Shown piece after piece: positions 23,734 to 35,633 of a DNA stretch of 64,000 nucleotides (positions within the stretch are counted from its first letter, which is position 1; the number at the start of each line of letters is the position of its first letter). The notes under the pieces are model-generated. The model was not told where the DNA came from and did no database searches. It saw only the letters and a list, made by a program, of their open reading frames with translations. The DNA comes from Hyphomicrobium sp. 99 (GTDB lineage Bacteria > Pseudomonadota > Alphaproteobacteria > Rhizobiales > Hyphomicrobiaceae), in contig NZ_KQ031382.1 in NCBI RefSeq assembly GCF_000384335.2, positions 1,488,001-1,552,000 on the forward strand. Direction: 5' to 3'. The position numbers were made by a program, and so were the translations under genes.

Positions 23734-25167
23734 GTGGAAATTGCCAGAGCCGCTCTCCGTGATCTCCCCTCCGTCGATGCCGTTCTGAATAGCGCGACCG
23801 CCGCCGCGCTCTTGGAGCGGTTCGGACGTTCCGCTTCCACGGAAGCGATCCGAACCGTGCTTGCTGAAACACGTATCGCGCTCAAGTCGAGGATGTTGCC
23901 GCCCCCGACAGTCGAGCAGGTGGCGACGCTGGCGCTGTCTCGGCTCGCCGACGGCGATCGCACGGCTCTTCGCCCGTTGTTCAATCTCACAGGCACCGTT
24001 CTTCATACCAATCTCGGACGCGCGGTGCTCGCCGAGGTCGCGATCGAAGCCGCGGTGGCAGCCATGCGAGATCCCGTCGCGCTCGAATTCGATTTGGCGA
24101 CCGGCCGGCGCGGCGAACGCGATGATCATGTCAGAGATCTTCTCTGCGCTTTGACGGGCGCGGAAGACGCGACCGTCGTAAACAACAACGCCGCCGCCGT
24201 TCTGCTTTCGCTCAACACACTCGCCGCCGGACGCGAAGCGATTGTTTCTCGTGGCGAGCTGATCGAGATCGGCGGGGCCTTCCGCATGCCCGATATCATG
24301 TCCCGCGCCGGGGCGAAGCTCGTCGAGGTCGGAACAACGAACCGAACCCATCCGAAAGATTATAAGTCCGCAATCAACGAAGCGACCGGGGTCATTCTGA
24401 AGGTTCATACCTCGAACTATCGCGTCCTTGGTTTCACATCCGATGTCGGCGGAGCCGAACTCGCGCGCATCTCAGCCGACAGAAATGTTCCGCTGATGAA
24501 CGATCTCGGATCGGGCACCATCGTCGATTTGTCCCGATATGGACTGAAGAAAGAGCCGACCGTGCGGGAAGCCGTGGCGGAAGGCGCCGATGTGGTGACG
24601 TTCTCCGGTGACAAGCTTCTCGGCGGGCCACAGGCGGGCTTCATCGTCGGCAAGCGCGCTATAATCGATGCCATCAATCGCAATCCCATGAAACGCGCGC
24701 TGCGCGTCGACAAAATCCGCCTCGCCGCCATCGAAGCAACGTTGAAACTCTATCGCGACCCGGATCGCCTTGCCGAACGCCTGCCTACGCTGCGGTTGCT
24801 CGCGCGGCCACGTTCCGAAATCGAAGATCAGGCTCGCCGCCTCTCGCCCGCCGTGCAGCAGTCCGTCGGACGAGGCTTCACGGTGACCATTTGCGAATGC
24901 GAAAGCCAGATCGGCTCCGGTGCGCTGCCGCTCGATACGATCCCGAGCGCCGGCCTCCGCATCACGTCGAACACCGGTGGCATCGCACTCGAACGATTGG
25001 CGGCCGCGCTGCGCGGCTTGCGCCGGCCGGTCATCGGTCGTTTGGAAGATGGCGCCATTGTCCTCGATCTCAGATGCTTGACCGATGAAACCGAATTTCT
25101 ATCTGTTCTGAACGCACTCGATAGCGACCCCTCGGCGCAATTCCAAAACGGCCAACCCAGCCGATAA
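23734..25167 (+). CDS. selA: L-seryl-tRNA(Sec) selenium transferase
   Basis: PLP enzyme of 477 aa that converts seryl-tRNA-Sec to selenocysteinyl-tRNA using selenophosphate; a homodecamer in E. coli. The PLP lysine is Lys294 in SGDKLLGGPQAGFIVG. Other marks are FNLTGTVLHTNLGRA, VVNNNAAAVLL and LMNDLGSGT. The start is a GTG with GAGG five bases upstream. Its stop is 7 bases before selB. Confidence 0.96.
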   Translation: MEIARAALRDLPSVDAVLNSATAAALLERFGRSASTEAIRTVLAETRIALKSRMLPPPTVEQVATLALSRLADGDRTALRPLFNLTGTVLHTNLGRAVLAEVAIEAAVAAMRDPVALEFDLATGRRGERDDHVRDLLCALTGAEDATVVNNNAAAVLLSLNTLAAGREAIVSRGELIEIGGAFRMPDIMSRAGAKLVEVGTTNRTHPKDYKSAINEATGVILKVHTSNYRVLGFTSDVGGAELARISADRNVPLMNDLGSGTIVDLSRYGLKKEPTVREAVAEGADVVTFSGDKLLGGPQAGFIVGKRAIIDAINRNPMKRALRVDKIRLAAIEATLKLYRDPDRLAERLPTLRLLARPRSEIEDQARRLSPAVQQSVGRGFTVTICECESQIGSGALPLDTIPSAGLRITSNTGGIALERLAAALRGLRRPVIGRLEDGAIVLDLRCLTDETEFLSVLNALDSDPSAQFQNGQPSR

Positions 25168-25174
25168 AAGCAAA

Positions 25175-27244
25175 ATGATCATCGGCACCGCCGGCCACAT
25201 CGATCACGGCAAGACGGCTCTGGTCAAAGCATTGACGGGGGTCGATGGCGATCGACTGAAGGAAGAGAAGGCGCGCGGGATCACGATCGACCTTGGTTTT
25301 GCTTATCTGCCAACGGCCGATGGCCAAATCCTCGGGTTCATCGACGTACCGGGCCACGAACGGTTCGTCCACACGATGCTGGCGGGCGCGAGCGGCATCG
25401 ACTTTGCGCTGCTGACGGTCGCTGCCGACGATGGGGTGAAGCCACAAACGCTCGAGCACCTCGCGATCCTCGATCTTCTCGGCATCGGCAATGGCGTCGT
25501 GGTCGTGACGAAGGCTGATCTCGTGAGCGACGAGCGCATCGGCGAAGTCACGAGCCAGATCAAAGAAGCAGCCTCGGGCACTGTGCTCGCGAACGCCGAT
25601 ATCTTGACCGTCTCAGCGATGACGGGGCGCGGCATCGGCGACCTCCGCGAATATCTCGTGGCCGCGGCGTCAGTCATCCACGCGCGATCCGCCGAAGGGC
25701 GCTTTCGCCTCGCCGTCGATCGGGTCTTCACGCTGTCTGGCGTCGGCGTCGTCGTAACCGGTACGGTTCTCTCAGGCTCTGTTCGCGTCGGTGATCAGGT
25801 GCTGCTGAGCCCATCCGGATTAGCCGCCCGCGTGCGCTCGATACACGCCCAAAACAAACCCGCCGATACCGGCCGCGCCGGCGACCGTTGCGCACTCAAT
25901 CTCGCCGGCCCCGACATCTCGAAAGATGCGATCCACCGTGGCGATATCGTGCTCGATCCGGAGCTTCACGCGCCGGCCAATCGCATCGACGCCGTCTTGC
26001 GAATTTTGCCGTCGGAAGAAAAGCCGATCGGGCAATGGTTTCCCGTGCGCTTGCATTATGCATCCGCCGAAGTCGGCGCGCGCATCGCTCTGTTCGACGA
26101 CAAATCGCTTCAGCCCGGCTCGTCTGCCGACGTACAACTTGTTCTTGATCAGCCGATTGCGGCAGGCGTGCCCGATCGTTTCGTTCTGCGGGACGTCTCG
26201 GCGCAACGCACGATCGGCGGCGGCAAATTTATCGATCTCCGCGCGCCAGCCCGAAAGCGGCGAACGCCGGAACGGCAAGCCCAACGCGCCGCAATGGCGA
26301 TAGACGATCCGCACGCGGCGTTGTCGGCGTTGCTCGACGCGCCGCCTTTCACGGTCGATCTGACGGCGTTCGCACGCGACAGGACTCTCTCGGGTGCGCA
26401 AGCCGAGCGGCTTTCTTCCGAGCTTGGCCTGACCGTCTTGGAAGCCCGCGATACGCGTACGGCTTTGTCGTCGCAACGATGGAAGTCCTTCGCGGCGGGC
26501 CTCGGCGAGCGAGTCGCGGCGTATCACGAAACGAACCCCGATCTCCAAGGTATCGGACGTGAGCAACTGCGCCTGATGCTCGAGCCGCGTTTGACCAAGA
26601 CGGCATTCTCCGCCGCCCTTCAAAAACTAGCGAATGACGGCGGCATCGCGCTCGATGGCGCTTTCGTTCGCCTAGCGTCCCATCAAGTGCGTCTGGCGGC
26701 TGATGATGAAGCCGCATGGAAGTCAATCACCGCGCTTCTCAGAGGCGAAGAGCGTTTTCGCCCTCCGCGAGTACGCGACATCGCGAGTACGACCGGGCGC
26801 GCCGAGCGCGAGGTCCGCCGACTGCTGAAACTTGCCGGCCGCCTCGGTTGGGTCGACGAAGTGGCCCAGGACCATTTCTTTCTCCGTGAAACCGTCCGTG
26901 AGATCGTCGCCATTGCGGCAGGCATTTCAGAACAGGCGAAGACCGGAACTTTCAACGCCGCCGAACTCCGCGATCGCCTCGACAATGGCCGCAAGGTTGC
27001 AATCCAGATTTTGGAGTTCTTGGATCGCCATGGCGTGACCCTGCGCAAGGGTGATCAGCGCCGCATGAATGAGCATCGGCTGGACTTGTTTGGAAGCCCT
27101 GTGCTTTCGTCAGTTGACGTGCACGGAGGTGAATCGTCCCCGGTGGGACGTTCGGACTTCAAATCCGAGTGGGGCAGCGAGCCTGTCCCAGGTGGGTTCG
27201 ACTCCCATTCGCCTCCGCCAACTTTTCCGAAAACGCGCACCTGA
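25175..27244 (+). CDS. selB: Selenocysteine-specific elongation factor SelB, 3' end overlaps selC
   Basis: GTPase of 689 aa that carries Sec-tRNA to UGA codons by binding the SECIS hairpin. Motifs: [17 protein letters not shown] (residues 3-19), [19 protein letters not shown]; beta-barrel domains follow, and the C-terminal winged helices run to about residue 635 ([16 protein letters not shown]). No stop occurs before the tRNA-Sec gene: the last 40 or so codons are read through the whole tRNA and end at the TGA 27242-27244. This tail is low-complexity ([14 protein letters not shown]), evidently a by-product of tRNA sequence. Confidence 0.95.
27125..27220 (+). tRNA. selC: tRNA-Sec (anticodon TCA), nested in selB
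   Basis: 96 nt. The 8-bp acceptor GGAGGTGA pairs with TCGCCTCC (one G-T pair) and extends further; the anticodon arm CGGACTTCAAATCCG presents TCA; a long variable arm (GGGGCAG/CTGTCCC) and T-arm GGTGGGTTCGACTCCC follow; discriminator G and CCA are encoded. Closely resembles E. coli selC. It lies entirely inside the selB reading frame on the same strand. Confidence 0.97.
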
Positions 27245-27250
27245 AGCGCG

Positions 27251-28297
27251 TTAGAAGATATTGATCCGCCGCTCTCCGGTTCTGACGGAGCCGATGATGC
27301 GCGCGCTCGAATATCCCGCCGCCTCGATGGTGCTGCGCAAATCTTCCGCCTGGTCAGGAGCGCATGCGATCAGCAAGCCTCCCGACGTCTGCGGATCGGT
27401 CAAAAGCACCCGTCCCGTTTCCGGCAGGCTCTGAGGCAAGACGACGTCCTGGCCATAGCTCGCCCAGTTTCGCCCCGAGGCGCCCGTCGCAAATCCCGCC
27501 TCCGCCAAAGCTTGCGCGGATGAAAGAAATGGAACGCGGTCGTAGGCGATATCGATGCTGACGCCGCTCGCGCGGGCCATTTCGAGAGCGTGTCCGAGAA
27601 GGCCGAAGCCGGTGACGTCCGTCATGGCGTGAACGTACGAGCGCTCGCCCAATGTAGAGCCGATCCGGTTCAGCAATGTCGTTGACGCTATCATCTCGGC
27701 ATAAGCGTCCTCCGGCAGGGAGCGTTTCTTGAACGCTGCCGAATAGATGCCGACACCTATACCTTTGGTCAGAATGAGAGCGTCGCCCGGCTGCGCGCCC
27801 GCATTCAGGCGGATGTTCTGCGGCTTTGCGAGCCCTATCACGGCCAGCCCGTAGATCGGTTCAGGCGAGTCGATCGAGTGGCCGCCCGCAACGGGAATTC
27901 CCGCTTCCGCGCAAATCGACGACCCGCCGGCGAGGATGTCGCGCACGGTGTCGATGGGCAGTTTGTCGAGCGGCATACCGAGGATCGCGAGTGCCATGAT
28001 GGGCCGTCCGCCCATCGCGTAGACGTCGGAAATGGCGTTGGTCGCGGCAATGCGCCCGAAATCCCGAGCGTCATCTACCATCGGCATGAAGAAGTCGGTC
28101 GTGGCCACAACGCATTGATCGTTGTCGATGTGCCAGACCGCGGCATCGTCTCCGGTCTCCGTTCCGACCAGTAACTGCGCGAAGTGTCCGGCGCTCGGTT
28201 GCCCGGCAAGCAATTGCTGCAAAACAGAGGGAGCGAGTTTGCAGCCGCATCCGCCTCCATGCGCCAAATCGGTTAAACGAATAACAGGTCCGAGCAT
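27251..28297 (-). CDS. selD: Selenide, water dikinase
   Basis: Makes selenophosphate from selenide and ATP for SelA (and tRNA selenouridine). 348 aa with the catalytic Cys17 in [11 protein letters not shown], encoded by TGC rather than UGA, and Lys20. [17 protein letters not shown] and [17 protein letters not shown] are conserved, and DPQTSGGLL is near the C-terminus. It converges on selB, leaving only 6 bases between the stop codons. Divergent from the permease gene across an AT-rich 148-base gap. Confidence 0.96.
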
Positions 28298-32075: not shown

Positions 32076-35000
32076 CTAGACCAACGGTCCGTTGACACTT
32101 TCGACATTGACCAGAAACGCCTTGAATTCGGGCGTCTGCGTATTGGCGTCTCCCACGGACGGCGTCAGCGTGTTGGCGCCGTAACCTTTTCTCGCCTGAC
32201 CCGTGAAGCCCCAGTGCAGCGGCACGCCGATGACGTGGGTTGGCTTCCCGTCGACCAGGAGCGGCTTGATCCGCTTCGTCACGTAAGCCTTGCACACGAC
32301 GAAGCCTCGCTTGGAGGCAACGCGAACCCAGCTGTTGTTCGCGATGCCCTTTTCGTTCGCCAGGACTTCGCCGATTTCAACGAACTCCTGCGGCTGCAGG
32401 ATCGCATTGATGCGTGCGTGCTTGGTCCAGAAGTGGAAGTGCTCAGTAAGCCGGTAGGTCGTTGCGACGTAGGGGTAATCGGCGGGTGTTCCGAAATCCG
32501 CGCGGTCATCGGCAAATACGCGCACAGCGGGATTTGACTGAACCTTCGGATGCAGCACGTTGGGCACCGGAGATTCGAGCGGCTCATAGTGCTCGGGGAA
32601 CGGCCCTTCCACCATCTGATCGAGCGCGAACAAGCGGCCGACGCCTTCGGAGTTCATGATGAAGGGACCAACAGAGTCGGAGGGCTTGATCGTTGGCCCG
32701 TAATCGGGAACGTCGATGCCAACCCACTTGGCTCCGTTCCATTGAATGATCGGCTTCGCCGGGTTCCACGGATTGCCGAGAACGTCAGCACTGGCGCGAT
32801 TATAGAGAATGCGCCGGTTGGCCGGCCACGCCCACGCCCAGTTCGGCGCGATGCCCTGATCGCGTGGATCGGACGCGTCGCGCCGGGCCATCTGATTGCC
32901 CTTCTCGGTGTAGCTGCCCGAGAAGATCCAGCAGCCCGACTCCGTGGTGCCGTCATCGCGCAACTGCCCGAAGCCATCGAGCAGCTGCCCGGCTTTCACC
33001 ACAACGGCACCGGACGGATCTTTGAGGTCCGCACGCGCCCGGCCGTTCATGTCCTTCGCCAGCTCTTCGGGATCAGGATCGGTTGGGTTGGTATAATTCC
33101 AAGTGAGGTTCAGGATCGGGTCGGGGAAGGCGCCGCCCTCCTTGCGATAGAGTTCGCGTATCCGGTGGAAGAGTCCCGACATGATCCATATATCGGACTT
33201 CGCTTGCGCCGGCGCCTCAGCGGCTTTCCAGTGCCATTGTAGCCAGCGCGCCGAATTGACGAGAGAGCCTTGCTCTTCCGCGAAGCACGTTGTCGGCAGC
33301 TGGAAGACTTCCGTCTGGATCGCGGCGGAATCAGCAGGGTTTTGCGGGCCGAAATTCTCCCAGAACCGCGACGTCTCGGTATCGAGCGGATCCATCGTGA
33401 CGAGGAACTTGAGCTTCGAAAGCCCACGGCGAATCTTGCCGCGATCCGGGAAGGCCTGCTGCGGATTGAAGCCCTGACAGATGTAGCCGTTGATCTCGCC
33501 TTTGTTCATCATCTCGAACGCGCGGATGATGTCATAGAGCGGAACGTTGAGCTTTGGCAGCCAGTCGTAAGCCCAGTTGTTCTCGGCCGTGGCAGCATCG
33601 CCGTAGATCGACTTCTGGAAGCTGACAAAGAACTTCCTGTAGTTTTGCCAGTAGCTCATCTGGCCCGGACGCACAGCTTTGAATTGCCGCGTCTTCATGT
33701 AGTCGTCGAAAGTCAGCTCCTGATCTTTCGGCAAGGTCATGTAGCCGGGCATCTGGTTCGACAGCAGCCCGACGTCGGTAAGTCCCTGAATGTTGGAATG
33801 GCCGCGCAGCGCATTCATACCGCCGCCTGCAACACCGATATTGCCGAGCAGAAGCTGCACCATCGCCATCGTGCGAATGTTCTGCGAACCAATGGAGTGT
33901 TGCGTCCATCCAAGCGCAAAAAGGCTCGTCATCGCCTTGTCGGGCACCGACGTCGCAGCGATCATGCTGCAAATGTGCAGATATTTATCCTGCGGCGTAC
34001 CGCAGATGCGCGACACCATTTCAGGTGTGTACCGGTCAACGTGCTTGCGCAGCAGGTTGATCACGCAGCGCGGATTTTGCCACGTATCGTCGACCTTGGC
34101 GAAGCCTTGTTCGTCGACCTCGTAATTCCAGCTCGATTTGTCGTAGCTGTGCGTCTCTTGATTATAGCCGCTGAAAAGACCGTCCTCGAAGGCGAAGCCG
34201 TCTTTTACGATGAAGCTGGCGTTGGTGTAGGCGCGTACGTACTCGTGCTGGATTTGATCTTTCTCCAGCAGATACCGGATGACACCCGACAGGAACGCGA
34301 TGTCGGTTCCGGGCCTGATCGGCGCATAATAATCGGCAACCGACGCCGTTCGCGTGAAACGCGGATCAACGACGACCAGCTTCGCGCCGTTCTCAATCTT
34401 CGCTTCGATGACCCACTTGAAACCGCACGGGTGCGCTTCGGCGGCGTTTCCGCCCATGACGATGACCAGGTTGGCATTCTTGATGTCCTGCCAAGTGTTG
34501 GTCATTGCACCGCGACCGAATGTTGGAGCCAGACTGGCCACCGTCGGTCCGTGTCAGACACGGGCTTGGTTATCGAAGACCAACATCCCGAATGACCGGG
34601 CGACTTTCCAGGTGAGGTAGGAGGTCTCGCTCGAAGAGGCCGACGCCGCCAGCATGCCGGTGGAGAGCCACCGGTTGACGGTCGTGCCCTGGTCGTTCTT
34701 CGCAATGAAATTCTTGTCGCGATCGTCTTTCATCAATCGCGCGATGCGGTCGAGCGCCCAATCCCAGGTGACCTCTTTGAACTCGCTGGTTCCTGGTGCG
34801 CGATATTTCGGGACTTGAAGCCGCGTTGGCGCGTGAACGATGTCGAGAAGAGCCGAACCCTTCGGGCAAAGCGTGCCGCGGTTCACCGGATGGTCCGGAT
34901 CGCCCTCGATGTGCATGATGTTGGAGTGCGCGTTCTTCGCGCCGTCGCCCGTCGTGTAGATCAGGATGCCGCAAGCGACCGAACAGTAAGTGCAGGTATT

Positions 35001-35147
35001 GCGGGTCTCTTTGGCAGCGGCAAGTTTGAAGGGACGGACGGATTCGGCCAACGCCGCGCCACAGCCCCCAAATCCCATGGCCCCTAAGCTTGACGATGCG
35101 AGTGTCGCACCCGACAGCTTGATGAACCCTCTGCGTGTCAGTGACAT
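32076..35147 (-). CDS. fdoG: Formate dehydrogenase alpha subunit, selenocysteine at codon 198
   Basis: Periplasmic molybdopterin (bis-MGD) catalytic subunit, 1023 aa, oxidising formate to CO2. A twin-arginine signal ([19 protein letters not shown]) leads; the 4Fe-4S site is CTYCSVACG...LCPKGS. The frame is broken by TGA at 34554-34556, in [19 protein letters not shown], the exact context of the selenocysteine in E. coli FdnG. Read through, it is one gene of family length. The start at 35147 has an ACGGAG site; the GTG/ATG starts beyond the UGA are artefacts. First gene of the fdh operon. Confidence 0.97.
34514..34556 (-). promoter_or_regulatory. SECIS-like hairpin following the UGA codon
   Basis: Starting at the UGA, the minus strand can form ACCGA/TCGGT as lower stem, an internal loop, then GGCC/GGCT around the apical loop AGTCT, close to the SelB-binding AGUCU/GGUCU loops of E. 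coli fdnG and fdhF. Coding sequence is constrained at the same time, so this is a fold seen by eye. Confidence 0.75.
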
Positions 35148-35633
35148 CGGGCACTCCGTACTTTTTGCGCGAGCGAAGCAGCAGCACGTGAACAACATAG
35201 TGTAGGCTCTGATGGTTGCCTAGCGAACCTGCGTTAACCCTGAGAGTCACCTCACAAATCGGACATCTTCTCCAGCGGTCGGGCATCTGCAACTTGTAGC
35301 CAGATGCGGGGCGACGGTGCGGGGCGAGGTGGCCGCCTGTCCTATTTTGAAGCAATCGCGACAGCGTATTGCCAATCACGCGGAAAGGCTGTTTAAGGCC
35401 TCCTCATAGGCTTCCAGGCGCCCGATGTTGGCATCCCTTCAGGGATTGTTCCAGGTCGGCGACACGCGGTAGTTTAAAAACGTAGCAAATTCAACGCAAT
35501 AGCTGCGAGGGCAACTTCTGTCCGCACCGGTATTGCGGCAGCCGGCGGCGTTAGCGCTTTGTAGACGCGCCGGCGTCTCCCCAAATAGTTGAGCGGCAAG
35601 GTGCAGAGTCAGCACCGGCAATAGGATACGGCG
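35148..35633. other. Divergent gap between fdh operon and tig
   Basis: 486 bases holding both promoters. No gene is supported. An atccc-ttca-gggat hairpin lies at 35429-35442, and the minus strand near 35385-35450 has two short protein-like stretches in different frames that could be a gene remnant. No clear FNR, sigma-54 or sigma-70 site was identified. Confidence 0.45.

Follow-up and report, generated by a model that had tools for sequence, protein, structure and literature searches.

Nesting of the tRNA-Sec gene (selC) within the reading frame of selB has been reported in diverse Rhizobiales and other Alphaproteobacteria, along with partial overlaps in Gammaproteobacteria, remnants in Sinorhizobium and some losses (Mukai 2021, Int J Mol Sci 22:4605; PMC8124441). 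The same paper proposed, as a hypothesis, an either/or model in which processing of the tRNA leaves a nonstop selB message. Passages in two reviews (PMC9312934, PMC13188914) repeat the nested arrangement, and Hyphomicrobium is not mentioned in the text of Mukai 2021. Among the open-access papers searched, we found no experimental test of nested selC-selB. As this kind of nesting and the model were already in print, neither the observation nor the either/or mechanism is new. A whole tRNA within a bacterial coding frame was a prediction in 2021; the comparative signals described here now point to real translation through it.

The selB-selC locus and its neighborhood

In the window (the whole stretch of 64,000 nucleotides from Hyphomicrobium sp. 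99 that was analyzed), the selB frame (25175..27244, plus strand; an ORF with an ATG start, 689 aa including the tRNA-coded tail) has its sole stop at TGA 27242-27244 and is open through all 96 bases of selC (27125..27220, plus strand, with encoded CCA). The first-pass annotation had claimed this open frame, and the ORF list, ARAGORN and Rfam bear it out: ARAGORN calls tRNA-Sec with anticodon TCA (UCA) at 27125-27220, and Rfam RF01852 (tRNA-Sec) matches 27125-27216 with 82.7 bits, against a cut-off of 47. The earlier distance of 22 bases from the tRNA to the end of selB was likewise correct, the stop codon starting at the 22nd base. The predicted selC fold has an energy of −47.7 kcal/mol and a z-score of −3.2. 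A search of the genome (4.1 Mb, 3 contigs) found one strong selC copy; the second-best RF01852 match (L002), at 52.5 bits, is above the cut-off and is not called as tRNA-Sec by ARAGORN, and matches of ~50 bits to the model are present in many genomes of the family.

The ORF carries the GTP_EFTU, SelB beta-barrel and SelB winged-helix domains (Pfam) that identify a SelB elongation factor. Its body comprises residues 1-640 (25175..27094), ending ...HRLDLFG, as delimited by structure alignment, the C-termini of relatives and pLDDT. The alignment to a solved bacterial SelB structure (chain 5lzb) reaches residue 632; residue ~640 is near the C-terminus of relatives whose frame stops before selC; and mean AlphaFold2 pLDDT (26 rows) is 73 for residues 631-640 and 41 for residues 641-650. 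The remaining 49 residues consist of a 10-residue linker (residues 641-650; 27095..27124) that is free in sequence but kept in frame, 32 residues coded by selC itself (651-682, from Gly (GGA) to Pro (CCA)), and a trailer of seven codons (TFPKTRT) that, with the stop codon, occupies 27221..27244. With pLDDT below 50 for residues 644-689, this tail is predicted to be disordered, in agreement with the earlier remark that it has no obvious fold.

Upstream lies selA, encoding selenocysteine synthase (23734..25167, plus strand; Pfam SelA PF03841, 558 bits), and since 7 bases separate its end from selB, the three genes probably form a single operon, selA-selB-selC. Downstream, a selD-like selenophosphate synthetase gene (27251..28297, minus strand), named from its position and its AIRS and AIRS_C domains (Pfam), converges on selB-selC. 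Between the convergent selC and selD lies a 7-bp inverted repeat, AACGCGC-ACCTGAA-GCGCGTT (27232..27252, belonging to no strand), whose loop holds the selB stop and whose right arm overlaps the selD stop. The repeat could be a two-way terminator shared by selC and selD; it has no T run, a terminator scan gave no match there, and its strength is unequal across the genus.

Two abutting ORFs at 32076..35198 (minus strand), joined across their junction, form what we take, from its sequence, to be the gene for the formate dehydrogenase alpha subunit. The in-frame TGA between them (34554-34556) is likely a selenocysteine codon. A SECIS_3 element is located at this TGA (34501..34559, minus strand; Rfam RF01989, 82.2 bits), and is the single match of RF01989 in the whole genome; the search for other SECIS families covered the 64-kb window. 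The window thus links selA, a selD-like gene and a SECIS_3-bearing formate dehydrogenase gene.

Occurrence and history of the overlap

When selB-selC junctions were compared across relatives, as the first-pass annotation had suggested, all 13 strong selC loci of the genus proved to be nested in selB (22 genomes searched, selC in 13), so a sequencing error as the cause of the missing stop before selC is rejected. By SelB, the closest named relatives of the window include Hyphomicrobium, and the selB of H. facile DSM 1565 is nested too (L122). The survey was made with the tRNA-Sec model at genus, family, order and class level, the window being counted at every level and the sets overlapping. In the family (103 genomes), 22 of the 30 loci above 60 bits were nested. 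The order sample of 397 genomes gave 31 loci, 8 of them fully nested, and the class sample of 385 genomes gave 55, of which 3 were nested; a 56th class match (54.9 bits) was left out because its locus was not fetched. The selB frame stopped before selC at 4 family, 11 order and 26 class loci, and inside selC at no family, one order and one class locus. At 4, 11 and 24 loci, respectively, no SelB was found beside selC, meaning none by tblastn with the window SelB over the 1.5-3 kb of flanking sequence that was fetched. At one locus in the class sample, selC was on the opposite strand to selB. The 80 named loci whose SelB is most similar divide into 49 that are nested, 9 with a stop in the tRNA, 19 with an earlier stop and 3 without an adjoining selC. 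In a phylum-wide sample (398 genomes), 53 genomes had a match; 28 new loci were fetched, the remainder being already in the set or not fetched. Of the 28, 9 had a SelB directly upstream in our search, and none had an overlap.

Rows without a tRNA-Sec call by ARAGORN (L002-L008, L036, L037) were left out of the comparisons, and two with short SelB (L026, L104) were left out of the tree. Loci from two record sets partly duplicate one another (e.g., L013 and L120, with identical SelB rows), which the thinning described below handles.

Several individual loci deserve mention. One family genome (G032) carries both a nested selC and a further copy without a SelB detected in its flank (L024, L119). 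In Mesorhizobium temperatum (L184) and Microvirga calopogonii (L190), the SelB tail corresponds to the 5' part of tRNA-Sec; these tails are remnants of the kind known from Sinorhizobium. Mesorhizobium temperatum has an intact selC elsewhere (L230), and Microvirga calopogonii has no match above 48.7 bits. The selB-selC of a record titled Candidatus Eremiobacteraeota (L131) groups with Dyella, and the record is probably a mislabelled or contaminated bin.

On the SelB tree, the overlap state changed at least 15 times (18 with three states), and the starred branches alone force 7 changes for the nested state and 9 for a stop before selC; these counts come from a single FastTree topology that has long rows, leaves its deep branches open and does not give the direction of gain or loss. 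Most likely, the arrangement arose once in an Alphaproteobacterial sel operon and was then lost repeatedly, the repeated losses being read from the single phase in which selB enters selC. One distant SelB (L074, 36% identical) also has a frame that enters selC in phase 0, stopping at TGA 46-48; its overlap is possibly independent.

Reading phase, linker length and the stop beyond the tRNA

There are 89 rows, representing 88 loci (L001 being a second copy of the window), where selB stays open into selC, and the phase of entry is 0 in every one of them: 78 are fully nested and 11 stop at the tRNA TGA 46-48. By comparison, the 60 loci in which selB stops before selC are spread evenly over the three phases (19/20/21). 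Frames 1 and 2 are also mostly open through nested tRNAs (65 and 67 of 78), and a paired test of frame openness on the SelB tree had too few informative pairs. In three nested loci (L031-L033) the 3' part of the tRNA-Sec has one base less and is therefore shifted relative to the selB frame; the frame nonetheless stops soon past the tRNA.

The linker changes length in steps of three. Measured from SelB residue 635 to selC, the 87 rows have 17 different distances, each divisible by three, which requires at least 30 changes by parsimony on the tree, or at least 16 as a tree-free minimum; counted apart, there are 10 changes within uncoupled and 17 within coupled rows, coupled meaning that the start of a downstream ORF of at least 60 aa overlaps the end of selB. 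In simulations, 86% of one- or two-base linker deletions would still leave selB overlapping selC. The chance that 16 changes all fall in threes hinges on the natural share of three-base indels, and is 1e-7 if that share is one third, 5e-5 at half and 0.007 at 70%. Tails read in the wrong phase would be longer (medians of 58 and 148 aa, versus 39), which is perhaps why frame and length are kept. Hydropathy did not single out frame 0 among the three possible tails (−0.84, −1.03 and −0.59 for frames 0, 1 and 2).

Beyond the tRNA, the selB frame closes promptly. In the 42 distinct uncoupled nested loci, the median distance from the tRNA end to the first stop is 7 codons in frame 0, versus 34 in frame 1 and 21.5 in frame 2, and the frame-0 stop is within 15 codons in 41 of them; the frame-0 median is likewise 7 in the 26 coupled nested loci. 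Free selC genes (56 with an earlier selB stop, 38 without adjoining SelB) have medians of 19.5-32 codons over the three frames, and where the frame has already closed at TGA 46-48 (11 loci), the frame-0 stop has relaxed to a median of 61. Within the uncoupled rows, the prompt frame-0 stop has changed position at least 22 times. Thinning to one row per SelB identity cluster kept the direction of the contrast at all four thresholds, though it became weaker. For frame 0 against frames 1 and 2 in uncoupled rows, p was 8e-7 and 4e-6 at 90% identity (35 rows), 1e-4 and 0.001 at 80% (23 rows), 0.005 and 0.005 at 70% (10 rows), and 0.02 and 0.04 at 65% (7 rows), where the frame-2 median was 13 and the frame-0 median of separated loci dropped to 15. 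We take the prompt frame-0 stops as evidence that ribosomes travel to the far end of the tRNA.

Taken together, the one phase, the three-base linker steps and the prompt stops that relax after closure of the frame suggest real translation through the tRNA. From these sequence comparisons, selB is probably translated through tRNA-Sec, with selection on the frame and length of the tail.

Explanations of the overlap and comparison with known systems

The explanation that we favor, with a probability of about 0.6, is jointly one of a single transcript, two overlapping products and a tolerated disordered tail. The transcript, probably selA-selB-selC, would serve as message and tRNA precursor: ribosomes finishing SelB would read in frame across tRNA-Sec and stop a few codons on, giving SelB a disordered tail. 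Alternatively, the tRNA part would fold and be freed by RNase P and 3' processing, with loss of the selB stop codon. Each RNA molecule would then yield mature tRNA-Sec or full SelB, never both, and nonstop selB products would presumably be rescued. As part of this joint explanation, the tail appears to be tolerated rather than specifically needed, selection acting on its frame and length and not on its sequence beyond what the tRNA demands. A further step, which we offer tentatively, is that this bifunctional RNA has been kept for its own sake: selB would be translated through its own tRNA with a selected phase and a near stop, and each RNA spent as message or as tRNA would tie the level of the factor to its only substrate.

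The first-pass annotation and Mukai 2021 went further and proposed regulation by the alternative processing, in which freeing tRNA-Sec would destroy the selB message and so keep SelB and the tRNA in proportion. The anatomy of selC inside the selB frame fits this proposal, as do the one strong selC copy in the genome, the presence of a tmRNA gene that is available to clear nonstop products, and the nesting of every selC locus in the genus. On the other hand, the overlap state has changed too often on the tree, and separate arrangements are too common (just 8 of the 31 order-level loci being nested), to sit easily with it. Furthermore, balance by itself predicts neither the prompt stop nor the phase lock; whichever phase were open, the either/or choice would be the same. 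The selected frame and length are signs of translation rather than of regulation, and a tolerated overlap with costly wrong or long tails fits equally. Regulation of SelB and tRNA-Sec by the overlap is plausible, but we consider it unlikely to be the explanation. Of the first-pass interpretation, then, the nesting and a tail with no predicted fold stood, and removal of the selB stop by tRNA maturation follows from the position of selC upstream of the TGA; the balance between SelB and tRNA-Sec stays a proposal.

A promoter of selC's own inside selB would give separate transcripts with little competition between the products. Upstream of selC, synonymous change at codons with invariant amino acids is somewhat low, 0.33-0.46 for codons 10-60 versus a mean of 0.50 over 220 codons, a comparison of 12 genus rows with few columns. 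Scanning 26800-27500 for a sigma-70-like consensus gave no match, a test with little power in that almost none is expected by chance, and the 12 genus rows show variation at each of the 13 bases preceding selC, again a weak test. We regard a separate promoter as doubtful.

That the overlap is a pure relic, untranslated in practice or fully neutral and inherited by descent only, is improbable. Its single phase and clustered distribution would fit one origin, and the sequence of the tail shows little sign of coding constraint: synonymous changes within the tRNA are 36 of 120 in nested and 30 of 97 in free genes (p = 0.88), and with no excess synonymous share in the nested genes, selection on the tail sequence inside the tRNA gives no signal. 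The linker likewise has no codon-position signal (p = 0.34), and that of the trailer is weak (p = 0.014; p = 0.11 for a control stretch past the stop). However, a relic would account neither for a linker that has changed length repeatedly, and always in threes, nor for prompt frame-0 stops that have been repositioned time and again among uncoupled rows.

Translational coupling of selB to a downstream gene, of the ATGA type, is very improbable. A downstream ORF of at least 60 aa begins within the end of selB in 27 of the 78 nested rows, but the other 51 have no coupled start, and at this locus, where selD is convergent and there is no overlapping start, such coupling is rejected.

With the comparative signals pointing to translation across the tRNA, the either/or choice can be put to the test in Hyphomicrobium cultures, e.g., of H. 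facile DSM 1565.

Among known systems, one parallel is the tRNA-Lys nested in cox1 of Armadillidium mitochondria, which, as far as its summary in PMC8124441 goes, is likewise a tRNA wholly within a coding frame and in direct orientation, but belongs to a compact mitochondrial genome and involves unrelated genes. The partial overlaps of Dyella and Luteibacter (PMC8124441) enter the tRNA in the same phase as the window, but their SelB ends inside the tRNA at bases 46-48 whereas the window SelB runs through; the stop at TGA 46-48 also occurs in L042, L074 and Mesorhizobium atlanticum (L137). The window is closest to the nested selB-selC genes of Mukai 2021, with which it shares a whole 96-nt selC in the selB frame on the same strand, a tRNA-coded tail with Gly (GGA) first and Pro (CCA) last, and sel genes beside formate dehydrogenase. 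It differs from many, though not all, of these in that its selB stop overlaps no following start, and it is further set apart from them by a convergent selD and an inverted repeat spanning both stops.
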